Assembly: GCA_934045905.1 (NCBI GenBank)
Contig: OW203768.1
Span: forward strand, 7,220,316 to 7,284,315
Source of the DNA: Leuctra nigra
Lineage: Eukaryota > Arthropoda > Insecta > Plecoptera > Leuctridae
Direction: 5' to 3'
DNA: 64,000 nucleotides
The notes beneath the pieces are model-generated. The model worked only from the letters and a program-made list of their open reading frames with translations. It had not been told where the DNA came from and ran no database searches. A program made the translations under genes and the position numbers. Position 1 is the first letter of the stretch; every line of letters starts with the position of its first letter. Shown piece after piece: positions 889-40,600 of the stretch.

Positions 889-1157
889 TCATGAGAGCAC
901 ATTGAAATTCTCACAGTTCTTAAACTTGGAGTCTTCTTTGCCGAATACCCACGTGAACATCTGTCGGGCCTTCATGCTGGCGCGTACGACGCCTCTGCTC
1001 TTGTACCAGTGAGCGCCGGAGCCTTCTCGCTCCGCGTTCTCCAACTTCATGCGGATCTGGTTCAGGATGCCCACCAGGAGCTCGTCGATGTTGTGGCTGA
1101 TGCCCACCGACACTTCGATGAACTTGGCGCGGTAGGTGCACGCCAGACACTTGCCGT
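889..1157 (-). CDS. Rgk: RGK GTPase, exon 5 (terminal)
   Basis: The exon opens after a clean acceptor (tttgcag, AG at 1159-1158) with AC. These two bases complete a GAC codon begun by the last G of exon 4. It encodes 88 further residues: the G5-like EVSVGISHN, the last GTPase helix, and the basic C-terminal extension with WVFGKED and the RGK-type end CENFNVLS. In vertebrate RGK proteins the conserved end is normally C-x-x-L-x-V-L; here one extra Ser precedes the TGA at 891-889. Confidence 0.9.
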
Positions 1158-4100
1158 CTGCAAATGCACACAGAAGCATTTATAAATATCAAAACATTTT
1201 TAAAAACGACGTTTTTACGTAGGTAAGTACACTCGACAATTCATAAAACGGTATTTGAACGAAGCAGATTGGCTGCTGGTCAGGTTCATTGACAATCAAT
1301 CCTTGTTATTATCAATGAAATCAGAGCTCACCTACGTACTAGAGGTAGATGACGAGTAAGTATAGACTTCGTCAGATGATGCCGTCACATTTTTTTTTCA
1401 GACAAACAATTTCTTTCAAATACCGTTTTATGAATTGTCAAGTGTACCTACGGATTTTGATGATGAAAAAAATTAGTTCACAGCATTTTTTTATGTGGAA
1501 AAAGCATAAGGAAATAATTTTTGAACACCAAATATGTCTTGACAAATCAAAACACTTGCTTTCTGATTTTTTTAAAATACTTTGAGATTCATGTTTAGTA
1601 GAGTGTTTAGTAGTGGCAAAAGGAAAATCATTTTTTGACACTTTTATTTCTTGAAAAATCAAAACATTTGCTTCATTTGAAGAATCGTGCTTTTTTAAAA
1701 AAAAATGTTGAGATTCATGTTTAGTATGTACACTCCCCCAAATAATAAACGGTTAAATGGCATCATCCCATGAAGTCAGTGCTAACGCATTATCTAACTC
1801 TTTTAGGTGAGCTCTGATTTCATTGATAATAACAAGGATTGATTGTCAAGGAACCGGCCCAGCAGCCAATACGTTTTGTACCAAGTACCGTTTATTATTT
1901 GGGGGAGTGTACCTAGTATTTAGTAGTAGGCAAAAGGAAAATCATTTTTTGACACACATTTATTTATTAAAAAATACAAAAAGCTGCGATTTTTTAAAAT
2001 ATTTTGAGATTCGTGTTCAGTAGATTGTCCAAAACAAGCTCTTCTTACAAAAGCTAAATTAATAATTCGGTTAGGATAAAAGCTCAGACTCGACTGTTCA
2101 GGTTTCAAAAAGTGTTCAGGCTCAAAAAGTCCATGTTTCACCACTTTGCGTGGTGAAACATGAATCAATGGTTTATCTCTACTAGTCGAAAATGACTATT
2201 CCATTGGTAGTTGTTTACTCTAAGATTCTACACTTGTGGCTGATAAGTCCCATCGGTCTGGCTTCAGGAAGCATCCTGATAAGATAAGATAAGACTATAG
2301 AGAAAATAATTGTCCAAGGATAAGATAGATAGGTTTGTGCAGAAGCAGGAGTCCAGAAATCCCATGGGAGAAGAAAAATCAATATTACGTTTGGAAGCTG
2401 TCATTAAACGTATTTCATTCGTGACGTCTGATAAAGACAACGAAAAATAAATGAGAAACGTTGGATCAATTCAAAACGCAACGAACGTACTTTTGTACAT
2501 TACGGTACATACTGAGTACTGAACTGAGTACTAACATTCCTTCTGGAAATGGTATCCCAATTATTTTTTTTTTTTACTTTTTTTAGTACGTCGCACTGTT
2601 CTGAAGCTCTGACGGATGAATGATTGGGAGATGATGGTGAAGAGTAGGTAAGGATGGAAGGTGGGAAGGAGGCGGTCATGGCCTATTAGTAGGGTACCTT
2701 CCCAGCATTTGCCTATCGACTGAGGGAATACCACGAAAAAATCCCAGTCAGGAAGGACGGCCGCGGGAATCGAACCCGGGCCTCCGGAATACAAGTTCAC
2801 AGCGTTACCTCTGAGCCCAACCGGGTCCGTTTTTTTTGTTGAAACGTAATTGTTTGAACTGACCTTGTGACGAGATGACCCTACTCCTGACCAAGTCCAC
2901 TTTGTTCCCTACCAAGATGGCTGGTCTGGAGCGCAGCAGGTCCCAGTCCTGAAGACGCGCCAACTCATCTTCTGCCCGCGTGAAACTTGCCTTGTCGATC
3001 ACCGAGTACGTCACGATGTAGGCGTCAGGAGGGTCTTGCTGGTTGATCTCCTCCTGCAACACGCGATCGTTATGTCACGCCATCTTGACAAATATTCAAA
3101 ACTTTCAAAGTCCATTAAAACGTTCCATAGTTTTTTAACCACTGACGTCTTCATACAATCTTTTAGCTTGAAAAACTCATGTATAGAAGGCAGTGGCTCG
3201 AACCACTGCTTCCTCACGCTCATAAAAGAGACTGGGAATGATTCAAAAGGTGCAGTGATTTAGAAAAGCGATGCTCAAAAATATTCCAGAACCTTCCAAT
3301 GTACGGACAGAAATATAACATTCGTCCAGCACCTCACTTCAATTCGAACATTTTGTTTTCGAAATCTGCTGAAATAAACATAATGATACGCAGCTCGTCT
3401 CCATTGCGCAATTACTTATAATTTCCCCAGCTAGAGCGAAGAGAGCTGTTGCTTACATCTTGTACCGTCCCTGAGGGGGGTTGATACAGCTCGGGTCGGA
3501 TTACATTAGGTGTAACCATTAGTCAGATTGAATAAACAACAGCGTTCCCCTGACGAGCTGACGAACATCCGAAGTAAATCAAGCAGGAGATCAGATGGAA
3601 TGGATGGATTTTCAATCAAGTCAAAAAATACAATATACTAGTTTTATTGCCGATTTCAACAATTATTCACAGAAGTCCACACAGTCATATTTAACTATTA
3701 GAAAATATTACGCGGAATGTAATAATAAATTGCAATAAAGTTCATAACAAAACAAGGGAAATTGGAGTTTGGTATGGAATGGTTTAAAAATACATATTTC
3801 TATTCCTTTAGCTATGTGCCATAATTATTAAATTGTGTACACTGTACACCATACTTAGTTATGTTTCCTATAGCTTCCAACCCCCCACTTTACAGTGAGT
3901 TTTAGATGAAAGGGTCAGACTTTTTTCTCGGTCCGGCCAAATTACAGCTCTGATTACACACTTGACGACACTTGACTGGTATAATTATTGCGAATATGTA
4001 GCCTCATTACCCTCGTCCTGCGTTTAGAGAAAATGTAAAACTTCTTTGACATGATTCAATGACAACTTGCCAAATCATCAACTTACTATGCGTGGGCGAG

Positions 4101-7100
4101 TTCGTTCACAGACCGAAAGATTTACGAGTCAGCTAAACTAATTTCAAACACTTTATTCCGGCTAGATTTGATAATGGTCAACGAACTCTGTGAAGTGAAA
4201 TTTTCACAATTTTTTGTTGGCTCTCTCAAAGTAAGTTTATAAATAACGTATAGAGAGAGTGCAGTTCAAGTATCGGAGTAGTATCGAAATAATAAGACAA
4301 GGAAGGAAATCGCGCCAAAATTTCACTTTGACATACTAGACAAGTGTGGCTAAGAATAAACAAAATGACGTGATAAAAGAAATGATACTCTAAGGTTACT
4401 GGTGATACTAAATTTGTACCACAGTCTTTAAAATTCCGTCAGTATCTCGTTGATAGTTTTAAATTGAAAACAAGTTGAGTAATATTTTACCTTTGTGTTT
4501 GAGACGTTGATAAACTTGAGTTCGGATTCTTCACCGTTCAGCATTATTGAGACCGACTGTTCAGTCGGAGTGTCTGAAAACCAGAGAAACACAACTTCGG
4601 TGAGTTTTAAAAATATGCTTGATAACAAGGCAGGCATTTGTATCGCGGAAGTTGCTGAGCCAAGCCAAGTTTTGGCAGTTTTCTCGAGATGCCAGCACGC
4701 CGGGTCTAAATGACCTGCCAGTGGCACCAGATGTAATATTACGTTGACATTTGACCTCACGTGACCTTTTAGTAGATTAGCCACAATATTGAGCAGCTCG
4801 ATAACAATTTGAACTCTTTTTGCTGTGTAACGTGTTGTATTGTGTATTGTAATTATAATGTGTAATTGGATAGTTGAAGAGTCTTGGAATGAAACGCTGG
4901 GACAGCGTTTGTGTATTTTACTATGTACTTGGAAAGGATGGGTTCAAACCCACACTTCAGTGTAGGTAATTTCGTTGATTGCTGTTTGATTGGTCCTTGA
5001 TATGACATTTTAATTACTTACCGATTATGATTACTAAAAAATGGATGGGATTTTTTTTCTACGATTACAGCAGCTCTGTACAAAATTAGACATCATATTG
5101 ATTCCGATTGATTCAAACTTTTGGTGATGTACCTGACTTACATATCTGATGGGTCCAATCAATTTCATTGGATGTATGGATGCACTTTTGTGTTGATTAT
5201 AAAATATTTCCGTACATTCTTATGAACATTTGACAAAATAATGGTAGTAATTCTGCGAGTGTACCGAGCATCAGGATTTTTATGCCACTTTCTCTACGTG
5301 TTTTTTGTTTGTGTTTCCTTTTGTAGGCAAAGCCCAGGTAACACCGCACAACCAATCTATCTGAAATTTTGCACACACACTAATGAGCGGCCTTATGAGC
5401 GGTCACTTGTATTGTTTTTGAACGAGGTCCTGTGATTGGTGGAAATTTACGAGAGTAACCTTACCGATCAACTTCAAATTTTGCATGATCATGGGACCGA
5501 CATTTTAGGTACCGCAATCTACCCCCATTCTTTTGACATTTTTGAGACAAATCTGTCGATACATTCATTAGTAATTAACATTTTATTGAAAATTTATGAT
5601 TGTAATTTATGATTTATGTGTTGAAAATTGTATAAAATTTATTCCAAGAAATTTCGAAGAAAATATCACTGCTCTTTTTTCAGGGGTTTCCAAGGCCTGT
5701 AGAGCATCAACAACTTTCACACGAATATTAATTCGCATGCAATACGAATGCTCGCTTATCAACGCGTAGGGTTGGACGGGATAATTAACATCACGTATCT
5801 TATTTGGCGTGACCTTTATGTTAAACAGGCCACAGACTGTCTGAAACTGTAGCGAACTAGCAATTATTTATGTCCTCCTTCATGAGTCAGAGCTAACTGT
5901 TTTCACTGAGATTCAATACATTTGAATCGAAATCATGGCTGGCACTTCTGCAAACCAACAAGAATTTTATGTTGCTCGCTTTTCTCGCAGTCACCACAAG
6001 GCACGCAGAGTTTATTTTCATGATTTGACAAAACGCTGCCACGCTCTGAGGTTATAGATAGAATGAAAAAGCTATCTGAGTTTGTTGCTGCTTCGAATAA
6101 TTCTCTTGGTGACTTCTAGAAAAACTGCTTTCTCTGAAAAGCTTCTTTGAAAAGCAATCATCCGCTTTATGTCGATCTAAAAATATTGTGGATACTTTCG
6201 GTTCTGGCATGGGACTAATACTGCAATACGGGGACTTGAACTTCTACAAGGAGCAAGCGTCCACGCTCTGGCCATGTCAAGAATGTTCAATCATTTCAAC
6301 AATTTCAGCTATTTCTTTCAATAGAAATGGCCGACTGATTCGAGCTAAATCATTGCTATTTCGTGTCCAGTTTTCACAATATCAAAATTATTATTATTAT
6401 TATTAAGTCTATATTCTCAACAGAGCCAGGCTCCACTAGTGAGAATGTAATATAGAGAAGGGAGGAGAGGAAACCCGGTACCGGCATGTAGCCTACTCCT
6501 GACGAAAGATACCAAGGGGACCAACGGCTTAACGTCCCTTCCGAAGGACGGTGTAACATTCACAGCACGAGCCTCCACAACCCGCGCCGTCGAGAGACTG
6601 ATAACAGGTGGAGGGAGGTCGTTACACTGACCCCCAAACACCCCAGTCTCTCTGACCCAACGGCAGCAACCTGGCAAGGCAGAGTTGAATGGTCACCCAT
6701 CCAATCGCTGACCGCGCTCAATGTTGCTTAACCTCGGTGATCTGACGAGAACCGTGGTATCCAACACACCAGCCGTTGGACATTTATATGATAAATATCA
6801 TATATCATATCATATTTAACCTCATATAAAATTACCTACATATTAGTATTATCTGTTTCTATGTATTGTAAAATCTACTCACAAAAGATTCACAGACATA
6901 CATTTTAGAACTTTTTAGGGATTTCTCCCAGTAAAATATTGACAAATTATTTACGTGTGAGACAACTCTTTAAATATCGTATCATCTTCACTATAAGACC
7001 TCGACCATAAGTATTCGCTCAATTTATGAATCCATGGACTATTTTTTGAGAGTATTTCCCATATATCGTGTGCTATTGATTCGCTTGTATCATCAAAATG

Positions 7101-19100: not shown

Positions 19101-22100
19101 ATATTATTTTGAAATAAATCAATAACTAGTGAAAATATGAATTTTGTGTCTTTTCTAGGGGGAAGGGGGGTTTGCAGGTGTGACATACTTTTTAGGGCGG
19201 GTTGTCTAAACATTGACAACTTGTGACAAGGGGGAAGGGGGGGGGGGGTAAAAAGTGGCCTATTTTGCGTGACATACTTTGTGAATAGCCCTATTATAGT
19301 GCGCTGTGACCGGTGAGGTGAATTGTTAATCCTGTGTCCCTGCGGCACGGTGGGTTTAGCTGCTATCAGTGTTGTGATGGAGCTGGCGGTGTGTTGTTTA
19401 CATCAGCTGATCTGGGGTTGGGCGGTCGAGGTGGTTTTCGCGTCAGTGTGCCAGATGAAGAAGGTAGAATCACCTTCGAAATATTGTGTTTTATTTTATT
19501 TTAATTTGTGACGCGTATGTCCAAGAGTTCGTGTCTTTTAAATAATTGATTACCCGGTAGATTATCTTCTTCTCTTTTATCCCCCTCTGTCAAGTAGTAA
19601 ACATGCTTGTGACTCACCTCTTTGTCTGTCATAGGCGTTGATACACTCTGACGTCATAAACTGGCTGATGAGCGCCGTCTTGCCGACGCCCTGGGCGCCC
19701 ATGATGGCGACTCTGTAGGAGGCGATCTCTGCGGGGGGCTCGTTGCTCCGGTAGGGACTGTTGTTGGGGGCGTCCCGACTGGGTGAGGTGGCTGGAGTCA
19801 GACCCTGGGGTGGCACCAGACTGTTGCTGCGTGAGCGGCGACGTCGGAAACTGTCTCCTCGGTTCACCACACCTGGAAGCCGACTCAATGTTATCGAGGA
19901 CAATGTGGCTGGAGTCAGACCCTGGGGTGGCACCAGACTGTTGCTGCGTGAGCGGCGACGTCGGAAACTGTCTCCTCGGTTCACCACACCTGGAAGCCGA
20001 CGCAATGTTATCGAGGACAATGTGGCTGGAGTCAGACCCTGGGGTGGCACCAGGCTGTTGCTGCGTGAGCGGCGACGTCGGAAACTGTCTCCTCGGTTCA
20101 CCACACCTGGAAGCCGACGCAATGTTATCGAGGACAATGTGGCTGGAGTCAGACCCTGGGGTGGCACCAGACTGTTGCTGCGTGAGCGGCGACGTCGGAA
20201 ACTGTCTCCTCGGTTCACCACACCTGGAAGCCGACTCAATGTTATCGAGGACAATGTGGCTGGAGTCAGACCCTGGGGTGGCACCAGACTGTTGCTGCGT
20301 GAGCGGCGACGTCGGAAACTGTCTCCTCGGTTCACCACACCTGGAAGCCGACTCAATGTTATCGAGGACAATGTGGCTGGAGTCAGACCCTGGGGTGGCA
20401 CCAGACTGTTGCTGCGTGAGCGGCGACGTCGGAAACTGTCTCCTCGGTTCACCACACCTGGAAGCCGACTCAATGTTATCGAGGACAATGTGGCTGGAGT
20501 CAGACCCTGGGGTGGCACCAGACTGTTGCTGCGTGAGCGGCGACGTCGGAAACTGTCTCCTCGGTTCGGGACACCTGGAAGCCGACTCAATGTTATCGAG
20601 GACAATGTGGCTGGAGTCAGACCCTGGGGTGGCACCAGGCTGTTGCTGCGTGAGCGGCGACGTCGGAAACTGTCTCCTCGGTTCACCACACCTGGAAGCC
20701 GACTCAATGTTATCGAGGACAATGTGGCTGGAGTCACACCCTGGGGTGGCACCAGACTGTTGCTGCGTGAGCGGCGACGTCGGAAACTGTCTCCTCGGTT
20801 CACCACACCTGGAAGCCGACTCAATGTTATCGAGGACAATGTGGCTGGAGTCACACCCTGGGGTGGCACCAGACTGTTGCTGCGTGAGCGGCGACGTCGG
20901 AAACTGTCTCCTCGGTTCACCACACCTGGAAGCCGACTCAATGTTATCGAGGACAATGTGGCTGGAGTCACACCCTGGGGTGGCACCAGACTGTTGCTGC
21001 GTGAGCGGCGACGTCGGAAACTGTCTCCTCGGTTCACCACACCTGGAAGCCGACTCAATGTTATCGAGGACAATGTGGCTGGAGTCACACCCTGGGGTGG
21101 CACCAGACTGTTGCTGCGTGAGCGGCGACGTCGGAAACTGTCTCCTCGGTTCACCACACCTGGAAGCCGACTCAATGTTATCGAGGACAATGTGGCTGGA
21201 GTCACACCCTGGGGTGGCACCAGACTGTTGCTGCGTGAGCGGCGACGTCGGAAACTGTCTCCTCGGTTCACCACACCTGGAAGCCGACTCAATGTTATCG
21301 AGGACAATGTGGTACATTCATCAATTCTTGGATGTTTTCGAGAACTTCGTTGTATCAAGATGGTAGATGACAGTCAGTCTGTTCCGTTTGATGACGGCGA
21401 AGTGTTGGTCTCCGAAAGTCGCCAGAACGGTTACATCGCCAAACGCACATGTGCCATCTTCATTCATAATAAAACGTGAATTCTATCTGGACAAACAGAG
21501 GTTCCATGGTGGAGCAAAGAGAAACCCTTTCCCTCATCCTGACTCAAATTGACGTTTTCATAAACTTAGTTTCCTTTATTGTAATAATACATGCAAAAAT
21601 GTCAATGGTATTGTAACATACTTTTTTGATCAATATTATCTATTTTCTAAACAGGTTTAGGGACTATAGTTAGAATGTGCGAGAAGAAGCAATGAGGAAG
21701 AGAAGCCAGGACACCTGTTGAAATATATTCTCCCATCCGAAGAACGACGTAACCCTTCCACCTGGGACCTGACCACAACCTGCGTAGTCGAGACTGATAA
21801 CAGATGGAGGGGGGCTGTTGTTACTTGATACTCTCTCTCGACGGCAGCAAGCCAGCATTGTGTGTTCACATACATTCCAGCTAGTGGTCATGATGTTACA
21901 TCTTCCGTGAAATAGCATCATACTAGCGATAATCCGTTCATAATAGCGATAACTAATCCCAATTCAAACAATAATATTTTTGTCACTGATCTTGAAAACG
22001 TCAATAAAATAACATAATTCCATCTAATTTAATTTTCAGGGTAGTACAAGTTGCATTACATGAGTTTTGGAAATTAATATGGAAATTCACAAAATGATAG

Positions 22101-25100
22101 AACGAAAGTAATCAAAATATTTTGAAATTCTAGAACTAATACCAACAATAATTAACTTACCTATAATGTACGAAATCGAGTCCATACAACATGAAAATAA
22201 TATTTAAATATTTATCTCTATGGAGTTCTTGAATTTAAAGTAGAATAGTAGATCAAATAAGCCCAGAAATCAACCCCTATCAATGCCCCAATCAATGCTA
22301 GATTGTATTTTACAATGACGCAATCAGACATCGTATATTTGAAAATGTCTATCGTCTACATGACACAGACCATTTTCCTGATAATTGAGCCACGTTATTC
22401 GATTTGAAATACCTAATCCTCGACATGGTGTGAACTAATCTCTCCATCCCATCCATGTGAAATATATGCTAAAACCAAGCATTAGCTCGAGTGTGTAGTA
22501 ATGAAAACCATTACCATTCATACTCTATAGCATTTAGGTATACCTCTGACATTATATGGTTTCTGATAACGAATGAATAAATGTATCATAAAATAAAAAA
22601 ACTCGATATTTCTGGCAATATTCGATATTCTAAACTTGTGTTTTGCATATTTATGATATGGAATATAATGTTTCACATTTTGGAGCAAAAATATGGAAGA
22701 ACATCAACGGAGTTCGAAGTCACCAAATACGTCAGAATTGTCGTGGAGGGGGATTATTTATTAAAATAAGTATCAGGTCGCACTGTTCAAAAGAATCGAG
22801 AACCTTCCCATAATTTGCCTCTCGTCTGAGAGAGCCACGACAAACATCCGAACCAGGAAGGACAGCCGCGAGGTTCGAACCTGGGGCCTATTCTCAGGTT
22901 GAATCCTTCAAAGTAGGTGTTCAATTCAGCATTATTTTACATTTGAAGGGTATACAGGGAAAGAATGCTATTAGTCCACATTAGGATATAAACGAGGTTT
23001 TATGTTGAAACTTGTATCTATCTTCCAACCATTACAAATCGATATTTAAATTGCGTTTCTTCAAGACTTGGTGGCAATATTTTCTAACCCCTAGGGTATA
23101 TTCTGAAAGCTCATAAAAATCACTGCAAATTACAACTTAAACTATATATTTTTTTTCCCAAAAATTGACTTATAGCGCTTTTTCAAATTTACATTAATTA
23201 AAATGTTTTAATTAATGTGGATTTGAACATTTTCGTTTGACGGATTTAACTCGGAAACCAGAGCATTGGAAGTGCAAGTCAACCAAGCATAAACCAACCA
23301 AGCTTCGACCTTACTTCGACCAAGCATAAATTGTTTATTATCAAGAGGACACAGCTTGATTTGAGCTCTACAAATATTAATTATTTACGTTTGAAGTACC
23401 TGTCTAATCGGGCCTAGACTGATATTACTTTGTTCCTGAGAGTTTCTTCTTCGATTTGAGTCGTGGATCGTTCTGCTGTGCAAGGAATTGTGAGTGATAT
23501 CCACTTTTGAAATATAAATGTATTGAGATTTTCTGCTGAACATTAGAGTTGAAAGTATAATTTTCACGACCCACGAAGATGTCAAGTAACTGCAAACCAG
23601 GAAGCTCATGTCTCCAAACAAGGTCATCAGATTCACCACATTTTATTCTCAAGAGCATTGATGAACTTAAGATGTATGAAATTAAAAGTGAACTATTCAA
23701 TCGGGGAATAAAGGATGTTATGGGTAAAAAATCTGTTCTTGTGGATCGATTAAAAGACGTGATGAAAACATTGAATCAGGACCCAGAAGTCTTTATGTTC
23801 GAGACTAATGACAAAATAGTAGAAGATATTTCTTCTTCGGCGAGAACTGTTCCCAAAAAGACTGTCAGGCAAAGTTGCTTCTATTGTACTATTGAAGTCC
23901 TTGATTCTGACAAGGCACTACTGTGTGATGGATATTGTAACAGGTGGGCTCACATTGCGTGCCTTCATTTATCTAATTCGCAATATAATACATTATCCAC
24001 AATTAAATCAGCTCAGTGGTGGTGTAAACCTTGTACAATAGAGCACAGAAACAAGAAAATTGATTGTGGAGCATCAGACCAATGGCTGAAGTCAATTAAA
24101 TCAATGGAAGGGATCTTGAAGGAGTTGATCAACGAACAAAAGATGACGAAAACAACACTGCATATGTTGTCAAATGAAGTGCAAGAGTTGAGAGAGGGTG
24201 TAGTCAGCCTGGCATCTCATATAGGAAGTAAAAGAGAGAACAGTCAAATCTCGACCGATTATTCTTCTGAAATCTCTAACTCTTTCTGCGTAGTCAATGA
24301 AACCAGCGCTAAAGTCTTGACACTAGATGTAGAAGAACAGAAGAAAGGTGTTGAAGTTGAAGAGGGTGAAGATCGAGGAGTAGAGCATAAATGTACATTA
24401 GATGGAGGACAAATAAACAAGAATGCTATGAATAACTTCTGCTCTGCAATCAATGAAGTAAGCTTTGAAGTCTCGACAGCAGACGTGGCAGACAGTGGGA
24501 CGGAGATTGAAGATGGTATCCTTCGCATTACTGACGTAATCTCTACTGATACCGCAAGATCACTACGCCAATTACCTGCTAATTCATGTATTAATGTTAT
24601 CAGAGGCAACTTATTTGATGCCCCAGCAGATTATGCATTCGCTCATTGTGTTGGGAAGGACTTGGTGATGGGAAGTGGAATTGCTGTTCAATTTAAAAGT
24701 AGATTTGGAGGCAGTCAGTTGTTGGCGGCACAAAAGAAGGATATCGGAGAAGTAGTGTATCAAGAAGTTGATGGTAGACCCATTTTTCATCTCGTGACGA
24801 AAGAAAAATCTTCTGGGAAGCCAACTCTCATTGATTTTGTAAAAACTATATCAAGCCTAAAATCCATATGCATCGAAAAAGACATTAAAAAATTGGCTTT
24901 ACCGAAAATTGGTTGTGGAATTGATGGTTTCACCTGGGACCTAGTTAAGAGTGTTTTAGAAAATACGTTCAAAGAATCTGACGTTATCATCAAGGTCTAT
25001 TCTCTGCATGCCGGGCAGAGGTTGAGTACCCAACGAAGTGTAGCCTGGTCGTCGGACAATTCCAAGACTAGAAATCCAAGAACAACAGCTGTGCTGAACA

Positions 25101-28100
25101 GACATGCTCAAAAGGTTCAAAATGGCATCCAATCAAAATCGTATCCACAAAATAATCATACTGATAAGGATTATAATGAGACAGGCAGGGTGTGGACATC
25201 AAAGACTAGGAACCAAAGATCAAACGCACTGAACAGACCAATGATTCATCTACCAAATAAACCTTTAGTTCAGGATTATGATTTGAGATTTGGCGAATCA
25301 GAAAATAAAACACTGCTAAATGATCCGATATCCGTATCCGTAACCGCAAGTACAGTACCGGCTGAAAGTAATCAAGTACGGATTGAATCCTGTCCTCGCT
25401 CGCATGGTACAAGTAACAGAACTATTATAATGCCAACCATGCTTCTCTTGGGAGACTCTACCCTTGCCAATGCAAGAGATTTTCATCTGTGGAAGAATGA
25501 AGACTCAAGAATATTCCCAGGCATTCGCATTAGTGAACTTACAAAACAGCTTCAATTGTCTCAACCAGAAGAACCTATGAAACATGACATTGTCTTTCTC
25601 CAAGTAGGTGTTCAAGATGCAAAGCTGGGAATAGATGCAGCGAATCTTGTTAATGACTTTGCAAATCTGCTACGAGTAGTCAAGGAGACATTTAAGGGAG
25701 CTGAAATCTGTGCCAGTGGAGTTCCATTGAGGAAAGATCTAGGAATTGCGACAGTATGCAGAATGAACTGTATCATAAGGGAGGAAGTTATTCGAAAAGG
25801 AGGTTGGTTTGTAGATCCTGGTCAACACATTGGAGCCAGAGAAATGAAAGCGGACGGGAATAGATTGAACAACTTAGGAGAAAACACTTGGCTGGAAATA
25901 TTCAAGGATTTTGGTAAAAGCATGATTCGTGTTAAAAACAATGCCAATTTCTCGGGAAACTGGTTGCGTTAACTGGTCTTGAAGGAAATGCACAATGGGT
26001 TGTGAGGGAAAAGGGCGATGTGATTAATCAGCGAAATGCGGTACGGCTGTTACTAATCAACTCTAGAAGTATTTTAAAGAAGATTGATAATTTCCGAACC
26101 ATTGTCGAGACTTATGATCCCGACTTGTTTGTTGTTGTTGAAACGTGGTTGAGTCAAGATATAAACAACAGCGAAGTATCTCTGGCAAATTACACACTTC
26201 ATAGAAATGATCGCAACAGACATGGTGGAGGAGTGATGATTGGCACCAAGCATGAACTGAAAGGAAAAGTTCTCTGGACTGATGACAATTTTGAAATGAT
26301 ATGCGTCGCAATCAGTACTAGTAAAAGCAAGACGATTAATGTCATAGGTACCTACAGAAGTGGCACCGGTGGCATTGAGTTTCTTCAAAGATTGAATGAC
26401 CATCTGCAGCGACAGGACATCAATCAGAGGACAATAGTGGCCGGTGACCTCAATTTTCCAGAAATTGAATGGAAACATGGAATTGCTACGAATGTAATTA
26501 CTAAGCAGGGAGTAGTTTACTCCATCATGAATCAAGGTTATGAACAAGTTGTAAAGGAGGGCACAAGGATGATTGATGGGACCAGGAGCAACCTGTTGGA
26601 TGTGGTGTTGATTAATCCAATAGACAGTCTGCTTAGAAGTGATGTTGTTGAGGTAGATCTGAGCGATCACAAGGCAGTCATCGTTGAAGTCGAATGTGAT
26701 ATGAATGGCTTGGTTACTGAGGCGGAGACAAAAGCAGTAGTATGGTGTTACAAGAAAACCAATAGAAGAGGACTTCAAGATGAGTTAAGCTACAATTTCT
26801 CTGATTGGGCATCTGTAGACAAGAACGTTGAAGAACTTTGGGATGGATTCTTGAATATCTGTAAAGCCGCGATGGTACACCACATTCCTCAACTTGTGTT
26901 AAAAAAAAATAGTGACCCACAGTACTATAACGAAAAAATCAAGAAACTCAAAAGAAAGGTTCGAAATCATTACAATAGAGGAAAGTTTAGGGGCGGCTAC
27001 AAGGAGAAACTTAAACTTCTCACTAAAAGACTTAATCAGGAAAAGGCTAAGGCAAAGGATAAATTCATGAAAAACATGTTTCGAAAAGATGATGAAGCAG
27101 GCGGATGGTCCATGCTGTATAAACATGTACGTCAGCAAAAGGGTGGAACGGGTGGAAGAGATTTACCAACTTTAGTAGGAACAGATGGCACAGAGTTTTC
27201 GACTAATGAAGAGAAGGCAAACGAATTGAACATTTTCTACTCCAATGTATTTAATAAAAATCATTGCCATTTGAATGAAGACGTAAATGCGGGAGTTTCA
27301 ATGGGAGCATATCCATTTTCCATTAGTGTTGCAGGAGTTCTCGACATTATTCGCAAACTCAAAAATGGAAAAGCCCCCGGCGAGGATGGACTAACAGCTC
27401 GCTTCTTCAAATTGGGTGGTTACATTATCTCCAAATACCTTTTCCACCTGTATACTCAAGTAATAAAAGATGGTGCAATTCCAATTGACTGGAAGAAGGC
27501 AATTGTTATTTCAATCTTTAAAGGCGGTGAGAAGTGCCGACTGACCAATTACCGACCCATTAGTCTTACGTCCCTTGCGTGCAAAATCCTGGAGAAACTA
27601 ATTAACCAATACATCTGGCAAATATTAGTTGAAAAGAATTGGATCATAGAAGCACAACACGGCTTCAGGGCAAATTTCTCGTGTGAGACGCAACTTACTG
27701 GCTTCGTACAAGAACTGTCTGATGCACTGGATAGTGGAGAACGAGTGGATGCAGTATATTTGGACATGATGAAAGCATTTGATAAGGTTCACCACAAGAT
27801 ACTCATTTCAAAAGTTAAATCAATAGTTCCAAACGATGCAGTCATTCAAGTACTGGAAGCATTTCTTTTAGGGAGAGAACAAAGGGTCAAAGTTGGAAAC
27901 ACCCTGTCTGACAGTATACAAGTCACTTCCGGAGTACCTCAAGGTAGCGTTCTAGGCCCATTACTGTTTCTCATTTACATAAATGATCTAGTATCAAATG
28001 TACAGTCACCTGTTCGACTCTTCGCTGATGATTTAGTTGTCTATCGGAAGATTAGTAATGAAGAAGATGAGCAGGATCTTCAACATGACTTGGAAGTGAT

Positions 28101-31100
28101 CAATGAATGGATGATTAAGAATGAAATGAGCTTGAATGTGAAGAAGTGCGTAGTTGTGAGTTATACGCGAGCCAGAAAAAGTAATCCTGCCAAATATTCC
28201 ATTGCTGAGCAGACACTGCAAGTGATGAATGGCTACAAATACCTTGGAGTCTGGATTGATGAAACTTTGGAGTGGAAAGACCATATAAGTCTAGTTGCCA
28301 GTAAAGCCCTTAAAAACATAAATTTTGTCTATAGAAACTTGATGGGAGCAAGCATAGCTACGAAAAACATGGCATATAAGACACTCTTGAGACCTCTTCT
28401 GGAATATGGAGGTGCCATATGGGACCCTTACCGAGAAAATGCAGTTAGGTCACTAGAAAATATTCAAAAAATTGCGGCTAGAAGGGTGACTGGTAGAGTA
28501 AAGAAGTGGAAGAAGGAACGGAATGAGAGAGGTGTTTTGAATGTTGTTTGGGAAAGTCCCAATGAAATGATGAAGGAATTGGAATGGGAAACTTTAGAAA
28601 GCAGAAGGAAGACTGCAAGGTTATGCAATATGTTTAAAATGAGAAATGGCAATATTGGATGGTCTGAATGTGCTGGAAAGTTAGAAGAAAAACGTCAAGG
28701 AAGAACAACCTCAAGTCACATGATAAAAGAACTTTTTGCACGAACCGATTGCGGTAGATTTTCATTTTTGGCCAGAACCGTTCGTGACTGGAACAAATTG
28801 CAACACTTTGATATGACTGACATATCTGTAAAAGAGTTTCGACATATGGTGACATCTAAGAACGAGGAGGACGGTGATGAAGGAAGTGAAGACAACAAGA
28901 ATTAGAAGGACCTTGAGAGCTGGCTCTATTATTTATTATACCATATTATTAATTTTCATTGTACTGTTGTTCCTTACCACCTTGTGGATACCCACTACTT
29001 GTAAGATGTGTACAAAATAAATCTAAAAAAATCTAAATCTAAAGTAGTAATCGGACAAAACAAGTTAATCTTTAAATCAAAAACAGTAAAAGTTAATCTC
29101 TGCTTTGCCATTGGTTAAATCCACAACTTTCAGTAAAGTTGGAACTTAGGTCATGCTGAACGAGCACAATAACTATAGAACTTGATCTGCCGATTCCAAA
29201 GATACACATCATAACTCAATAATTTCAAAAATGTCGCTTGAGTGCTTTAGGTATTTAGTACGGCAGTATTTACTGGCCGAGCCAAAAGCTCCGTCATTGC
29301 TTTCCTCTATACTCTGAACATTTTTCTCTTCGAGTATTATCAGCTAGTGTGATCATCATGCAGAATGCAACACTGGTATTATGTCATGAGCTATTATCGC
29401 ATTCAGTCGAAAGCAATTGAAATGCCTCTATGAATAATGAATCCTGTCCCAAGTAATCGCTGCAATGACGTGTGAGTAACCAAAGCGTTATAAATAAAAT
29501 AGGTCTAATTTAACATCCCATTTGGGACAAAAGCCAACATTGCCCTTCTACAGTTTAAAATCTATGTTTATGCCACAATGACTGTATAGAGTCAGACGTC
29601 AAGCTATAACAAGAATAGCAAAACCGCTATTGCATTTGAACTGATAACAATCTTTTGAAGCGGGGGGTGGGGGGGGGGGGGGGTCGATTAACTTGCTTGT
29701 TAAAAAAAACAGTTAATATGAAATAACATTAATTTGATGAATCAAATTACCGAAAATTAAAGTCTAAATTGTATTGAAATTAGAAATGGCTCCCTTTTCT
29801 CTAAGTTATCACGTCACAACACTCTTAGTTATAAAGGAGTTTGTCTCGGCGTTCCACGTTATGTTTATATTATGACGTTTCATCAAATAATAACTTAATA
29901 AAGTGGTTACAATTTCTCCAAATTTATTTTTGAAATTCTTAATTTGCCATGCCCTGTGCGGTGCTGACCCGCATCTGACTCCAACCTCCACTTTTTCGTA
30001 AAAATCGTGTTTTCCATCAAGGTTAAACATTTTCCACCCTAACAAATCTTTTTTGGGGCGAGTTGTCTAGATACCGTCATTAGGCGATATTTGAAGGGAA
30101 ACATAAACATCATACTTTACAGAGAATGTAACAAATTGTTAACAAATTGGCAGGAAGCTCCTTCTGGTGAATATTCATTCTGGTTGTTTTATTACTAAAA
30201 TTTGCTACCTCACACTGTCCATTTTCCATTCTCGTTTTGTACTTGCCTTTTTCTGCAGGTGATGGGATTGTAAATTAGATTATAGAGTTCCATTTTTAAG
30301 ATTCAATTTAATTAACTTTTGAAACAATATTTGTTCAGCCGATCCCGATAGCGGATTGGTTTATTCAACATCGATTCTGCGTTATCTTTTGTGAATGTTA
30401 TCAGCTTTTGCGGCGGCATCACTTTTAATGAGATTTTGCAATCGAGTTATTAGTTTTTAGGAAAATATCACGGAGAATGGGAGCACGAAGCTTTTCAAAT
30501 ACACGATTCGACATTTTACAAGTCGTAGAAATTCGCGCAAGTGTGCGATAATAGATGGAGCCACCTGTTTGGAAAGATGGTGGTCTAAAATTAATCGTAT
30601 TAAATATTACTTTTATAATGAAATATCATTGTGATACTAAAATTGAGGCCTGTTTTTATAAAAATAATAAGCTATTACTTTTAATTTATAATTTTGGAGT
30701 TAATAAAAATAAACTATAAAAATAAATTATAAAAAATAATGGAGCCCTAACACCGCCATTGCTATAGTACTTAGCCGACATAAATTGTGTTTCTCGTTTT
30801 CTCGAATATTCTTCCATTTTACTATTTTTGCATTTTCTTCAATCGAATAAAACTCTAATATTGAGCCAAATGTTTTTATTAAAATTTAAGTTGTCATGTC
30901 GTATGACGGTATGCTCTACATCATTTCATTAAATCATCAGAAAGAGAAGTATTTTGTGTACAGAAACTCGTCTGTATGCTGATTTTCTGCGAGAATGTTT
31001 TGGGCAAGTAACAATGGGCCGTGATTTTGGCAACCGTGATTTTGGCAAGCCTCGATGTAGATCATTGGGTCAATAGTATATTAATATTAGTCGTTCCCTA

Positions 31101-34100
31101 CAATGTTTTAAATTAATGCATGTGACAAGAAAACAGAAAACTCTTCGCAAAATGGGTCATCAGTTGATCTTGAAATATATGGGCGAATGAACATTACGGT
31201 CGCTGGAAAATTGTAAAGGATACAATTAATTATTTTGTGTTTGGGAATTTATGCATTATGTTGCCAAATATTATGAATTTACACAAGTTACGACTGCACT
31301 GTTCGTTTCACATAGAACCATACCACTTTTGAGATTAGCGCATACATATCAGAGTGTAAACTTGATTATTTCCATGATAGATGCGGTTTTAGTTTACTCC
31401 CAAGTGAATGAAACCCCTTAACAATTAGATACACCCTTGGACAAAACAATGTGTCGTCGAATGTGCTACTAAAAATTAAATGTTTTTTTGTCTACTTGAC
31501 TTCACACTGGGATGATTACCCTGAGTATATCTCACCCAGAATGTTGTAATCTCTACAATTAAAATAACCTGAAATATATTCAGTGGAATTCAAAATTCTA
31601 AGACCTCACATTACTATAGGAATTCTCAATTGTAAAAAAATGGGCGATGAAGAAAAAAGATAAATTATTCATTTATACTAGATTTCGAAAACGGCGATAA
31701 ATTGGGTAGAAATTCTTCTTCTACCAAAGTATGAATATTGGCGAACAGGTAGAAGAATTATGAATTGTAATCGATTTATGTTGTCTTGTATTTCAAAGCG
31801 ACCGCATTACGTAACTAATGTTCGATCTTGTAACTTCTTGCTTTAGTGACGTTTCAAACAACAATAGCTTTTACGTCCAGCGTTTAGTGCCACGATTGGC
31901 GAAATTCATCACAATTCCTCGTAATTTTACCATATTTAAATAATGTACCTAATCCTTAAAAAAAGTAAATTGATACGAGTACTCGTATCAATTTACTATA
32001 CCTATAGGTATTATCTAGAAAGTATTGTGCGCACCGCAGTTTGATCAAAATCATTCTTTAGCCTGCAGGTATGAATAGATTAGCAACATAATTCGCATGC
32101 AACACAAAGTCTTTCTAATCACACACAGAGCGTTTTCCTAGTTGATATACTTTGGGTAAGAATGAACCAGTCTGTAATGTCGATCAAACTTGCCTTTTTA
32201 AATAATTCGAGGAACTAAACTGTTTAAAACTGCATTTTGATTTTCGGCTTTTCTAAAGACGTAAAGATGAACGATGCTTGGATGAACGGTTGAAGGCAGA
32301 TGATGGACCATTGGTGAATAATGTAGAGTTAATCTAGCGCGAACTCTGACCCTACTTGATGTGGAAACTAACAACATGATCCAAGAGATATTACAATATT
32401 CATGAACATGGAAACCGCGTGTGGGAATGTGCAGCTGCTATCGTGAAATAGAACGCATATCAGGTATTATATTCGCCAATCACACGGGATAGGATGGGAA
32501 ATGAAAATAAGTAATATATGAAATATGTTGGCTCAACATGTTGATCCATAGTGAATTTTGCTGCTCTATGAATGAACGAGTAAAAATAAACTTAAACCTT
32601 TTGATCCCCCTAAAGCCAAAACCCATTCTAATATTTTGTTGATTTTTTACATGGCTTTTAGGTCAAGAAATACTTTTCACCCCTGATCAATCTGAAATTT
32701 GGTATACTTTTCCTGACCCACGGCCAGAATTTTCGAGGAAAATTTTCTGAGTTAAATAAAAATGAAAAATTGTCTAGATAATAATAATTGTACCTCAGAG
32801 GTAGAAGACCGGAAGTCCATTTCAATGATTCTTGAGGTGAGCTCACAAAACAGTAACTCTGCCTTCATCCAGACATATGAATTATGATATAAATCATTGT
32901 GTAAGAGAATTCTACAATATAACTATATTTGTGGGCATCAGTCAAATCGTAATTGATAGAGCTTGATTTCATCATTCCAATAATGTGCAACGCAAAATCA
33001 AGAAAGTGGACTTCCACCTTCCACCTTCCAACCCATGTAGGTTTATGAATAAGCTGCGGTTGCTTCGCTTACGGCTGCTTGCGAAGACTTAAAAGCCTGG
33101 AAAAATTTGCCCCCCCCCCCCCCCCCCCCCCCCCTAACCCAGTATCATGAATTTGGTGCGTTTCTACGCGATTTGAATATAATTTTAAGACCATTTCATA
33201 CTCCACAGTAGAGTTTTCAGAGGAGGAGGGAGATTCTCCCCACCCCCCCCCCCCCCCTCCACCCCTTCCAAGACTCCTGATTTTACTTTTATAACTTTTC
33301 GGTCAAACTTTTAAGACTTTAAAATCCTTCTAAACGGTGTTGAGATTAGAGACGCACAACTAATGCTTGCTTATCGCTAGCGTTTTCCTCGACACCTTGA
33401 AATACTGAACCCACCATGACATTCAATTCTACCTGCTCCGTACAATGTAGATGCCCGCTTGCATGCAACCGCTCCCAGTAAAGGGCAATATATTAGGGAG
33501 AAGTGAAAGGGGTGCGTGTTTACTGTTCTGCCAGGTGAATCAGTCGGGGCCTACTCAATACAGTAGACTACGCTTTTCTAATATCGATTCAAAGTGGTGC
33601 GACTCCAGCTCTCGTATTAGAGTTATTCGACTTTCTATTCCATTGCACTTTGACGCGTTATTTACGCTGCAACGCGTTCGGTACACTTCAATGTTTCTTA
33701 TGTAATAAATGGGGTGGAAGGGGGGGGGGGGGGGGGGGGGAGATTCGAAAGCAAGTCGTCTCCACTTTGCATGTGTTAGGAGAAAAACATTTTTTTTTTT
33801 TATACAAATAGCTCGGAATTAGTTTTCAATCCACGTTTTGAAAAGGAATTTTGTTTTGCACTTGACATTGTATTTATGAATTAAAATTTAGCTCAAAAAA
33901 TATTTTATTGGAAGGTTTTGCATTGTCAAAACCAACCTCAAATGTCAAATAAACGTTTCCTTTGCACTTCAACATTGTATGCGATGTTTACATAAAATGC
34001 TTTAGATGATGATCGTTTTTACGGTTTTTACGGTTCTCGGTTTGCTTCTCGGTTAGCTCGGTTTGCATGGAATCGAACTCCATCTGAATTGGGAATTTAT

Positions 34101-34557
34101 AACAATCAAGAATAGGACTCAGGGCCGGTCTTTCAATACCCTGCTAAAGTCTCAATTAGCTGTTAACAGTTAGTTAGTACTAAACTCTGCATTTCAATTG
34201 GTTGTTGCCATGACAATACAGTCATCAACAGTTTAAAAGTTAGCAGAGTATTGAAAGACTGGCACTCAGAAGGAAGTTTGACTAAAATTTCAATAACTTT
34301 GGAATATTTACACTTTGGTTTAGGTCAGCAAATAGCAACTACAATGATTTTATACGCAAAACATTTTGTTGTTTTGACAATCTTGAATCTTCACACTCTC
34401 GGCAAAACTCCTGCACTTTGACTCCCGGAGATCCAGGATTCGATTCCCGTAGCTGACCTTCAGCACTGGTGTGTTTCGTGGTTCCATAACTAATAGCTGG
34501 TTACTTTATGCTAATAATAAGCCATAACTACCTTATTGCCAACTTCATCTTTCTACA

Positions 34558-34602
<45 letters not shown>

Positions 34603-37600
34603 TTACAATCATTGTCAAAATCTTTCACAGATGAGAAAAGATCTAGCAACATTAAAATACAATATTTATTTCCTAACGTTCTTCCACAGACAGTTCTTCT
34701 AAAGGCAACTTTGTAGACCACAGGGAGATGAAGAAGTAGATTTGAAATTTTAATTCGAATTGCGCAGAACAAGTCTCTAACCGTTGTCACGTTTCCAACT
34801 TGCCAGGTGCACAAAAACAAACTTCTCTTTAGTGAAGATAATTTGCAAGGCTAAAAACCCTGCCAAGTTAGAGGTAACCATATTGAAGTATGGTTTATAT
34901 TTTGTATTCATTCCTTCAACAGTCAGCAATAAAAAGGTTACGAGCAAAATATTTTCAATTTCATCAATCGATACACATATGCGTTTTCTGCGTTCATATT
35001 GTTTCCATTGTGTGTGAAAATGGTGACAAGTAAGATGGCGACGCAGCAAGTTATTTGTCTATATTCGCTCCATTTCTTCAACCGGAATAGAATTGTCCGT
35101 TGAAGCGATGTGACAGTGCAATATGTTCGTGAAACGCTTTCGACGCTCTCGCCAGAAAGCTGCCGCACACAATTGAATACCATTAACAGCTGGCAAGCAG
35201 GAAGCAAGCTCACTGCACCCCTTCACGTTCAACAATATCTAATTAAAATCTAATTTCATGTCCTAGGATAAATGCACCAGTAATTGACACTTCGACACTT
35301 AATTAATATGTTTAATAATTATTAAGGAGTCAAAACTAATATTAAATAGTATCTGTAGTCAGATGAAGGTACTAGTTGGTACTAGCTTTAACTTTCCATA
35401 TTCATATTCATCATTCATATCATACCTTCATAGAAGGCAGTAGAAATGATTGAAACCTATATTCATTATTCTGTCTTATTATCTATACCAATTTTAAAAC
35501 ACATAGTGGTGATTATTGTACAGAAGGTATTGTAGTTTTAAAATAGAGTATCATTTTTGTGTTATTTACAATGATTTTGATATAATTTGGGGGTGTCAAT
35601 TACTGGAACACCGACTGCCAATTACTGGAAAAAGTGCCAATTACTGGGACAATGGCATTTTTTCAATAACTCTATTTCTTACTTCCTTATGGTAATCGTA
35701 TCACATCTTTGAATAATTATGAGTATTCCTAGATGTATTCTTATTAGTTATTACTTAGTTCAAGTTTGAAGTTGATCTAACAATAAATCACACTTTTATG
35801 ATATTATAGGTAATGGTGCCTTTACCCTACACTATTACTAAAGTTTTAACGTATTTCAACTTCATAAGTAAGTATAAAAATATGTAATGAAATTGCGTAC
35901 TTCAATTAAAAAGACGCTTTTTAAAAAGGTATACCTAGAATAGGGTATAAAAATGTAATTTAGCCCATAAAAATATTAGAGCAACGTTCTTTTTATGTAC
36001 AATAAAATGATCCTGTTATTCGTATTTATTGCTTTCTTGACTTTCATAGAAAATCAGTTTTTCAGAAATAAACATGTTTGTGAGGTGAAGCGAATACGAA
36101 AGCCCGGTAACATAAAATGAAGTATAGAATTTTCTTCGGTTTCGATAATCAAATCGTATGTGAAAAGCAGTAAAAAGGGTAGCAAATAAGTCGCTGAAAT
36201 CCCGTGTTAAACCTGTTGGGAAATTCACGTCGATTCATGAAATATGGACGCCCTACGACGCTCCTAGACGCCCAGGCGTCGTGTTTATTCAAATACACTG
36301 GATTAGTAGGCAAATCACGGGTGTGGTGTTATAGGCGACATGACAGCTAGGTCATTTCGAGTACCTATATTGAATGATTATGATTGGAGATAGCGATAAT
36401 GAAGAGTGGTGACGGAACAGGTTGGGTGAGTGGTTAACGCGCTGAACTTGTATACCGGAGGCCCGGGTTCGATTCCCGCGGCCGTCCTTCCTGACTGGGG
36501 TTTTTTCGTGGTTTTCCCTCAGTCGACAGGCAAATGCTGGGAAGGTACCCTACTAATAGGCCACGACCGCCTCCTTCCCACATTCCATCCTTACCTACTC
36601 TTCACCATCATCTCCCAATCATCATCATAATCATTCATCCGTCGCCATTTGCCTCGCTGCAGAACAGTGCGACGTAAAGCTCCAGACAAAAAAAAGAAGA
36701 GTGGTCAGGGAGAATATTGCAAATTTTCTAAATGTAAAATCCTAAATGTTTCAAGAAGTTATTGAGGATAAAGCACGTGGCCATTATTCCAATACATTTT
36801 AAACTAATTTTATCGTGTTGTGTAGTTAACTGTGTTTAAAATAAACAAAAACAACATAGCCTCTGCCAACTCTCTAATCCCTATAAGAAATATATTTGTG
36901 TGTGTATTTGTGAAACCATCTGTAATTCGATACTTTTCTGCTATCCCCAGACATCCAAGTCGAACTTCAAGATTTTCCGCTCATATAAACCATGCAAAAT
37001 TGTCCTACTTGAAAGTAAACCCAAATTTACACAGTTTATTGAGGTCCGTGAAGTTAGCACCGCCCATTAACGCACTAATTATCTCATGTGTGGGATGAAT
37101 TAGTGCACAATTAGTGCGTTCGATCGGCACTAATTTTATAATTAGTGCGTCATCCGTTTCCGAGAAAAACGCACTTTACTATGGGCGGTGCCAACTTCAC
37201 GCAGCACCGCCCATTGACGCACTAATTTTCAAACCCACACAGGCAATTAGTGCACAATTAGTGCGTTCGATCCCCCCCATTCCCATAATTAGTGCGCACT
37301 TACTTTTCGAGTTATTCGTGAATAACCGTGGGCGGTGCAGCACCGCCCATTGAAAATTTCAAGGTTTTCAGCACGCCATATTTTAGTGCACAATTAGTGC
37401 GTTCGATTCCCCCCATTCCCATAATTAGTGCGCACTTACTTTTCGAGTTATTCGTGAAAAACCGTGGGCGGTGCAGCACCGCCCATTGAAAATTTAAGAT
37501 TTTTAGCACGCTATGTTTTAGTGCACAATTAGTGCGTTCGATTCCCCCCATTCCCATAATTAGTGCGCACTTACTTTTCGAGTTATTCGTGAAAACCCGT

Positions 37601-40600
37601 GGGCGGTGCAGCACCGCCCATTGAAAATATCAATGTTTTCAGTACGCCATGTTTTAGTGCACAATTAGTGCGTTCGATCCCCCCCATTCCCATAATTAGT
37701 GCGCACTAACTTTTCGAGTTATTCGCGAATAACCGTGGGCGGTGCAGCACCGCCCATTGAAAATTTCAAGTTTTTCAGCATGCCATGTTTTAATGCACAA
37801 TTAGTGCGTTCGATCCCCCCCATTCCCATAATTAGTGCGCACTAACTTTTCGAGTTATTCGCGAATAACCGTGGGCGGTGCAGCACCGCCCATTGAAAAT
37901 GTCAATGTTTTCAGTACGCCATGTTTTAGTGCACAATTAGTGCGTTCGATCCCCCCCATTCCCATAATTAGTGCGCACTAACTTTTCGAGTTATTCGCGA
38001 ATAACCGTGGGCGGTGCAGCACCGCCCATTGAAAATTTCAATGTTTTCAGCACGCCATGTTTTAGTGCACAATTAGTGCGTTCGATTCCCCCCATTCCCA
38101 TAATTAGTGCGCACTTACTTTTCGAGTTATTCGTGAATAACCGTGGGCGGTGCAGCACCGCCCATTGAAAATTTCAAGGTTTTCAGCACGCCATGTTTTA
38201 GTGCACAATTAGTGCGTTCGATCCCTCCTATTCCCATAATTAGTGCGCACTTACTTTTCGAGTTCGAGTGCTTACTTTTCGAGTGCTGCACCGCACACGG
38301 TTTTTCACGAATAACACGAAAAGTAAGTGCGCACTAATTATGGGAATGGGGGGGATCGAACGCACTAATTGTGCACTAAAACATGGCATGCTGAAAACCT
38401 TAAAATTTTCAATGGGCGGTGCTGCACCGCCCACGGTTATTTACGAATTACTCAAAAAGTAAGTGCGCACTAATTATGGGAATAGGGGGGATCGAACGCA
38501 CTAATTGTGCACTAAAAAATGGCATGCTGAAAACCTTAAAATTTTCAATGGGCGGTGCTGCACCGCCCACGGTTATTCACGAATAACTCGAAAAGTAAGT
38601 GCGCACTAATTATGGGAATGGGGGGGATCGAACGCACTAATTGTGCACTAAAACATGGCGTACTGAAAACATTGAAATTTTCAATGGGCGGTGCTGCACC
38701 GCCCACGGTTTTTCACGAATAACTCGAAAAGTAAGTGCGCACTTATTATGGGAATGGGGGGAATCGAACGCACTAATTGTGCACTAAAACATGGCGTGCT
38801 GAAAATCTTAAATTTTCAATGGGCGGTGCTGCACCGCCCACGGTTATTCACGAATAACTCGAAAAGTAAGTGCGCACTAATTATGGGAATGGGGGGAATC
38901 GTACGCACTAATTGTGCACTAAAATATGGCGTGCTGAAAACCTTGAAATTTTCAATGGGCGGTGCTGCACCGCCCACGGTTATTCACGAATAACTCGAAA
39001 AGTAAGTGCGCACTAATTATGGGAATGAGGGGGATCGAACGCACTAATTGTGCACTAATTGCATGTGTGGGTTTTAAAATTAGTGCGTCAATGGGCGGTG
39101 CTGCGTGAAGTTGGCACCGCCCATAGTAAAGTGCGTTTTTCTCGGAAACGGATGACGCACTAATTATAAAATTAGTGCCGATCGAACGCACTAATTGTGC
39201 ACTAATTCATCCCACACATGAGATAATTAGTGCGTTAATGGGCGGTGCTAACTTCACGGACCTAGTTTATTGTTCAACTTTTGTGTCATATTCCTTTTTT
39301 CATACAACTTTGTATTTACACGAAGCAACTTGTCACAGAACTTGATCTCAACTTTCATATCATTTAGAACATGATCTAATTTCTATCAAGAATTGTGAAA
39401 CAGAAGCTGAAAAAGAAGTCGCTCTGAAATTTAGTTTCTCTCCATAATATAAAACTAAACCAATTATAAAATCAAATAAAAAAAAATATATATAGAAATA
39501 TGATAGGTATGTTACAGCATTTGAAACTTTTTCACCCTAACAATTTGATTTCCTGACAGATCGGAATATCACGAATTCCTTGGCATTTGGGCAGCACCCA
39601 TGGTCACATAAAATTGTCATTTATCGATTATAAAAATAATTATGAGACCGCGTTCAAATCTGAAACCCAGCAACTTTTTGAATAAATAAACTCACCGAGA
39701 AAAAACGTGATTTCGTCTCAGTTTTGCTGTTTGGCATCTGAACGTTCGCTGACGTAATTCTGAGATTTCCTGGTGGGGAGTGACGGGTGGTTGACAGACA
39801 GCTGGAAAACAGGCATTGTTTCACTGCCAAATAGAACTAAAACTCCTGTTTTCTTTTGCTCGAAATCGATAAACAGGATGAAGCATTGGCGTTGTGGTTT
39901 TCTGGTGTTTTCTTCCATTATTGGTGAAAATCTGATATATTGTTAGGATCTTTTGTGATGCTGTGAATACAAAAAAAGAAAATCGAAACAATGCAACTAT
40001 CTTTAATAAAAAATCGGGATGTTCAAAATAAAACTGTTCATCAAATACCTACTTATACAATAGTGTACACAACAAAAGAAAGAACAGGGAACGTCATACG
40101 GAATTTCCCCGGAATTATTTCCTGAAGATGTTCCCAATACTTTTATGCCTTTATACATGCATGTAAAGGAATATTTTTGATTAAGAAGAGCAGACCCTAA
40201 GTTTAAAAGCTAGACCCTAAGTTTAAAAGCTTTCAAGACGCTCGTTAAGGATAAACTCGCTATCATTCAAGAAAGAGAATTCGTGAAGTAATGATATTGG
40301 AAGACGAGAATCAAGATTACATCCTGCTGAGAATGTTTTTTCAGTGGTTTTCCCTCAGCTAAAAAGCAAATGCTTGGATGTTCTTCCAATATTACCACTG
40401 ATATTGAAGCACAATTTTAATGACTATTATGAATTAAGAAGAAGTAGGTAAATGGTGAAGATGTGAAGCAGCTGAAGAGAAGAGATGGATGTATGGAAGA
40501 TCAACGACTCGATTGTTGAATACAGACCAATTATGTACCTATTTTATGTGCTCAATAAATTACATTATTATTATTATTATTAGTCATTTTGTTCCTTTTT

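Follow-up and report, generated by a model that had tools for sequence, protein, structure and literature searches.

The window analysed here is the whole 64,000-nucleotide stretch of Leuctra nigra DNA, and its minus strand carries a gene with five coding exons. The exons were located by eye, a script joined them, and GT/AG stands at all junctions. A tandem array covers the boundary between intron 1 and exon 2, and exon 2 is listed below with both its last and its first acceptor.

45964..46426, minus strand: coding exon 1, 463 nt, ending in phase 1 at AAG/GTAAGA; conserved with homologues
21312..45963, minus strand: intron 1, the part upstream of the array; the intron measures 24,687 nt if it ends at the first acceptor and 26,091 nt if it ends at the last
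19618..21276, minus strand: exon 2 from the first (intron-proximal) acceptor, 1659 nt, 13 copies
19618..19872, minus strand: exon 2 from the last (donor-proximal) acceptor, 255 nt, with the G1 motif GAQGVGKT and the donor GAG/GTGAGT
4491..4573, minus strand: coding exon 3, 83 nt
2864..3053, minus strand: coding exon 4, 190 nt
889..1157, minus strand: coding exon 5, with the G5 region, the C-terminal CENFNVL plus one extra Ser, and the stop TGA at 891-889

The introns on the two sides of exon 2 are at least 24.7 and 15.0 kb long. The deduced protein gave a Pfam Ras match (2.8e-17), the G-domain match began at about residue 206-209 in the Pfam and PDB comparisons, and the top ten PDB sequences were GEM, RAD, REM 1 and REM 2. 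A protein search returned 822 matches at E <= 0.001; all named ones among the 120 listed were insects, and several of the listed insect relatives were annotated as 'rad, Gem/Kir family member 3', REM 1 or RAD. The stretches NKVDLVRSR and EVSVGISHN, aligned to Gem, hold the equivalents of Gem R196, V/I223 and H225 (residues described in PMC4081519), and patterns of both types occurred in at least 86 of the 120 listed homologues when the 12 commonest combinations were counted. At the C terminus the C-7 motif with its invariant Cys is present as CENFNVL, followed by one extra Ser (889-912, minus strand), and the heptamer C-E-N/D-L/F-x-x-x ended without further residues in 117 of the 120 listed homologues (3/120 otherwise). 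The RGK hallmarks named in PMC4081519, namely the extended N terminus, the G4-G5 residues and the C-terminal motif, were all found in the deduced protein. These comparisons identify the gene as encoding an RGK GTPase of the insect Rgk3-like type. Fly RGK proteins have been shown to inhibit voltage-gated calcium current (PMC4081519).

The array was cut unit by unit, which gave 13 units of 117 bp with zero indels and six sequence types (A to F). Tandem Repeats Finder reported the span 19788-21312 with period 117, 13.0 copies, 99% matches and 0% indels. The array of 13 units is real in the assembly, from which the copy number is taken. Each unit consists of the 35-nt tail of intron 1, ending in CTTCCAG, and the first 82 nt of exon 2. 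CTTCCAG is present in 13/13 units, placing the exon starts at 19872+117k (k=0..12). Both the RGK identity and this unit composition had been proposed in the first-pass annotation, and both were borne out, the first by the PDB list and the 822 matches and the second by the cutting. The array and its edges, in gene orientation, are as follows.

19791..21311, minus strand: array of 13 units; read 5' to 3' along the gene, the types are AAAAABCDDDEFD
21309..21312, minus strand: left-hand duplication breakpoint, putative, TA-CCAC-ATTG, with the same CCAC as on the right
20568..20570, minus strand: triple change GGT to CCC in copy 7, turning VV into VP and the donor-like GTGTGG into GTGTCC
19788..19791, minus strand: right-hand duplication breakpoint, putative, AG-CCAC-CTC, microhomology CCAC

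Departures from the column consensus are confined to six positions in total (23, 40-42, 88 and 107), and the reading frame is kept throughout. The four type D units are identical to the consensus, and the five type A units differ from it by one base that changes L to V in GLTP. Type B carries a synonymous change only, which is also found in type E, and types E and F both have S to R in the intron-derived tail. The single type C unit is copy 7, where the triple change gives VP at a site that is V or I in 120/120 homologues (120 listed of 822 matches). The GC content of the array is 59%, as compared to 37% for intron 1.

The homologues read ...RLRSFSFTSKG-VVNRGDSFRRRRSRSNSL... across this region, which is the product expected from exon 1 joined to any of the acceptors, copy 7 (VP) excepted. 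The inferred junction, SKG/VVNRGDSF, occurs without a single difference in homologues, P0001-P0003 among them. Furthermore, NRGDSF was found in 120 of the 120 listed homologues (of 822), and the R/S run that follows it was nearly as constant. Several of 11 short proteins resemble genomic frames in which an intron-like tail runs straight into G-[VI][VI]NRGDSF; taken as protein strings rather than DNA, these would point to the same intron position in other insects. An insert of 6-7 residues at the junction was seen in 9/120 listed homologues (the eight named are beetles), and as a protein string it reads as an upstream-acceptor form of the same exon in other insects. One or two extra junction residues were found in 26/120 listed homologues, 24 of them with the moth or butterfly-type KGGIV, which may simply be fixed sequence, and 1/120 did not fit the pattern.

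When exon 1 was joined to each of the 13 acceptors no internal stop was found (0/13), and the products lengthened by 39 aa per unit, from 419 aa up to 887 aa. The exon boundaries, the phase and the product sizes given in the first-pass annotation therefore stand, and the repeated segment is itself strongly conserved within the protein. All units descend from one founding duplication, and for this reason the in-phase acceptors are one draw and not thirteen. Among the 35-nt tails before an AG in introns 1 and 2 of the RGK gene, 953/2010 (0.474) are open, and the chance of in-phase open units is then 1/3 (period a multiple of 3) x 0.474, about 0.16. A joint chance of this size led us to reject the notion that selection is needed to explain 13 acceptors in phase. 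The openness of the array was also rejected as evidence of coding or translation, as four of the six frames across it are without stops. A start at another ATG in frame with the array was rejected as well, the first in-frame Met after 21373 being at translation index 557, within the G domain. On the plus strand over the array (19761-21479) there are two open frames of 572 and 527 aa, which are a trap for gene predictors.

At the unit boundaries the sequence CAG/GTGT is present in 13/13 cases and continues as GTGTGG in 12/13 and as GTGTCC in copy 7, and every boundary could be read either as an acceptor or as a donor. This AG/GT at the boundaries is a point absent from the first-pass annotation; dual use of the sites would allow exact excision of a unit. 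The 13-fold recurrence of AGGT is no evidence by itself, because it follows from the duplication. Splice sites were scored with a rough matrix of fly-like frequencies rather than with MaxEnt. On this rough scale the donor-like CAG/GTGTGG scored 7.56, close to the donors of exons 3 and 4 (7.65 and 8.24) and below those of exons 1 and 2 (11.2 and 11.5), and the next-best donor-like site in the unit, AGG/GTGTGA in five type A units, scored 5.42. The unit acceptor scored 4.45 (4.9 in copies 11 and 12) by the same rough matrix, vs. 3.2, 6.6 and 9.2 for introns 3, 4 and 2. It ranked in the top 19% among the 3309 AG sites on the strand and was outscored by three AG sites (6.5-6.9) in the 600 nt before the array, which shows that the matrix discriminates poorly and is a weak guide. 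GTGTGG deviates from GTRAGT at +4 and +6. By eye, 11/13 units have a GAG that separates the acceptor from the candidate branch site (ATAAC). Units 11 and 12 (19908-20141) carry an A to C change in the intron tail that removes the AG just before the acceptor, and owing to this loss their acceptors may be slightly stronger. An unusual RNA structure of two units was considered as a driver and rejected (z -0.13).

To place the array among related genes, three protein searches (822, 270 and 376 matches) were used, with 120 matches listed from each and 355 distinct proteins examined. Two of the searches (822 and 376 matches) scored the 7,987 and 7,984 candidates that had most words in common with the query; the search with 270 matches held many fragments and the one with 376 matches included more distant RGK proteins. 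By two motif patterns the segment occurred twice in 0/355 of the listed proteins. The first pattern was present once in 352/355, only the second in 2 and neither in 1. Internal 10-residue repeats were detected in 4/355 listed proteins, and the printed examples (two each) are sequences other than the array segment. The best long matches among the 120 listed of 822 were Bacillus rossius (73% over 79% of the query) and Cryptotermes (77% over 74%). A near-identical full-query match was absent from the 355 listed proteins, and the Leuctra nigra protein itself seems absent from the matches listed. As far as the listed relatives show, the 13-unit expansion looks lineage-specific and is probably recent, because none of the 355 relatives has the segment twice and the units are near-identical. 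Among the open-licence papers listed for precedents and for RGK, we found no prior report of this array.

The edges of the array suggest how it may have arisen. The same CCAC stands at both breakpoints, and the span reported by Tandem Repeats Finder exceeds 13 x 117 by four bases. These features fit a single microhomology-based tandem duplication, followed by expansion and local homogenisation. In such a founding step a tandem duplication via the 4-nt microhomology would have copied the intron 1/exon 2 boundary, and local exchange or slippage could then have expanded the duplicate to 13 near-identical units. That like units stand in runs along the array fits local homogenisation.

By its layout, the array belongs to a known class of splice-site-bearing tandem repeats. 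A close likeness is to human UBC, which has head-to-tail units of a length that is a multiple of three, bounded by AG/GT and usable as exon or intron without change of frame (PMC10809524). The corresponding features are present here, with AGGT at every boundary (13/13) and a period divisible by three (117). However, the UBC units are 228 nt long and are the gene's own functional repeats, and the ladder of products was measured (PMC10809524), whereas the RGK unit lies across the acceptor of an intron of 24.7 kb, consists of former intron in 35/117 nt and corresponds to a segment that is single-copy in the listed relatives. In potato RdRp, as described in PMC4974935, a duplication likewise spans the intron 1/exon 2 boundary and the acceptor was copied with its branch region. 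Duplicated splice signals are present in the RGK array too, where a new intron would be putative. The potato case differs in having two copies with ten differences, an RNA-confirmed new intron and a cryptic GTAAG donor (PMC4974935), as compared to 13 copies here and a best donor-like site that is the unit boundary itself (7.56 in the rough matrix). In human duplicated genes, variable tandem repeats across splice boundaries alter splicing, and 27 intron modifications are given in PMC2812944; that set comprises segmental-duplication paralogues. The ratchet points of recursive splicing in the fly also juxtapose an acceptor and a donor in a long insect intron, but according to PMC8605326 these points are well conserved and generally have donors stronger than that of the cryptic exon. 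The RGK units, as candidate ratchet points, have AG/GT with a donor that is moderate in the rough matrix, and unlike at the fly ratchet points GTGTGG is weaker than the donor of exon 2 (7.56 vs. 11.5, rough matrix).

We put at about an even chance the explanation that a recent microhomology duplication was expanded to 13 units and is buffered by splicing, with an mRNA that mostly has one or few copies and, in addition, a stochastic in-frame ladder. The acceptor and a donor-like GT coincide at each CTTCCAG/GTGT boundary and the unit is exactly 39 codons long, and therefore the expansion would be buffered by splicing. A direct junction of exon 1 with the donor-proximal acceptor is one possible route. 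Alternatively, exon 1 may join an upstream acceptor, and units may then leave as in-frame 117-nt introns, from AG/GT to AG/GT. By analogy with UBC, such dual use of the sites would further shorten multi-copy products by exact 39-codon removals, and a stochastic ladder of in-frame isoforms would be expected, like the one measured for human UBC (PMC10809524). The extra copies would need no function, and after a duplication across an acceptor that is buffered in this way the copy number could drift without selection for function, a second point absent from the first-pass annotation. Since the 13 sites are so alike, acceptor position can decide, exon 2 being 255 nt from the last acceptor and 1659 nt from the first. 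Long flanking introns favour the splice sites closest across the exon, and there is an overall preference for the upstream acceptor that is reduced with long introns, according to PMC9225289. The second tendency makes it uncertain that the last copy would be favoured, and the two tendencies together predict a mixture biased to few copies rather than a single form. Removal of units as introns is made less likely by the poor fit of GTGTGG at +4 and +6 and by the base composition of the unit, as a unit with 59% GC is exon-like. The GTGTCC of copy 7, the GAG ahead of the acceptor in 11/13 units and the three higher-scoring AG sites before the array also count against the buffered expansion. A stronger version of this explanation is a natural splice-site competition array, in which dual-purpose sites at a conserved acceptor would yield a ladder of calcium-channel regulators with 1 to 13 copies of the conserved basic Arg/Ser segment through direct acceptor choice and recursive unit removal; the segment dosage would then differ from molecule to molecule and, where the copy number is polymorphic, from one individual to another; we regard this version as rather doubtful.

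Among the other explanations the one that survives best, although we find it unlikely, is a silent intronic minisatellite, where only the last acceptor (19872) is used, 12 units are intronic and the protein is an ordinary RGK GTPase of 419 aa. The last acceptor gives the shortest exon 2, and the long introns on both sides favour pairing across the short exon (PMC9225289). The layout of the one-copy protein is also that of the homologues, and the VP of copy 7, at a position invariably V or I in the listed homologues, suggests that not every copy is constrained by coding. However, the 13 acceptors are locally near-identical, and to exclude 12 of them completely position alone would have to decide. 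The 6-7 residue junction inserts in 9/120 listed homologues, which as protein strings read as use of an upstream acceptor, also argue against it, as do the 1-2 extra residues in 26/120, where the 24 KGGIV forms are possibly fixed sequence.

Each translated copy would add a basic Arg/Ser-rich segment with one RSNS motif, which may be a 14-3-3-like site. The net charge rises by about +6 per extra copy, from +12 for the one-copy protein to +86 with 13 copies, and a functional gain could follow. This leads to the explanation of a regulated, splice-tunable array, in which the acceptor used would determine how many Arg/Ser segments the channel regulator has and hence the strength of its membrane, 14-3-3 or kinase interaction. 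The segment is strongly conserved in insects, and in Rad the charge and phosphorylation of the C-terminal domain govern binding to CaV-beta and the membrane (PMC10904049). On the other hand, there is no sign of regulation, two copies were seen in 0/355 listed homologues, and in Rad, phosphorylating just the N-terminal sites had no effect (PMC10904049). A regulated phosphosite array is possible but unsupported, and we hold it to be quite improbable. An assembly artefact, with one or few genomic copies expanded or a longer array compressed, is equally improbable, for although assemblers can miscount arrays whose units are 99% alike, the six unit types stand in runs, unlike a simple assembler loop over one copy, and the flanks are clean with a plausible shared microhomology.

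The main interest of a splicing-buffered expansion is as a natural experiment in splice-site choice, as 13 near-identical competing acceptors and candidate donors could reveal whether position, exon length or transcription order decides. The array would be a case where splicing shelters a conserved signalling gene from a large expansion in frame, a matter of relevance to the origin of introns and of repeat proteins. If multi-copy isoforms are translated, they would equip a channel regulator with an array of charges and phosphosites in graded number.

Several other features were observed in the window. Inside intron 1, on the plus strand (23579-28905), lies a long LINE-like element, whose ORF1 has 797 aa and whose ORF2, with 967 aa, covers an endonuclease and a reverse transcriptase. 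Its ORF1 gave a PHD finger match at the cut-off (24.0 bits) and, less expected, a Macro domain with 29.2 bits (cut-off 22, E 9.8e-07); 'macro domain' in retrotransposon papers was not found among the matches listed (10 of 43). Intron 1 also contains two arrays of 136-bp units (37247-38264 and 38283-39058), 18 bp apart and with consensus units that are reverse complements, which together are a putative large inverted satellite-like structure. Further on, a pair of tRNA-Thr (GGT) genes stands in divergent orientation 150 bp apart (48602-48674, minus strand, and 48825-48897, plus strand) with equal Rfam scores; they may be working genes or may belong to a mobile element. Finally, three open frames with HTH_psq domains at 56998-58714, on the same minus strand as the RGK gene, are probably exons of one gene, which we presume to be pipsqueak-like.
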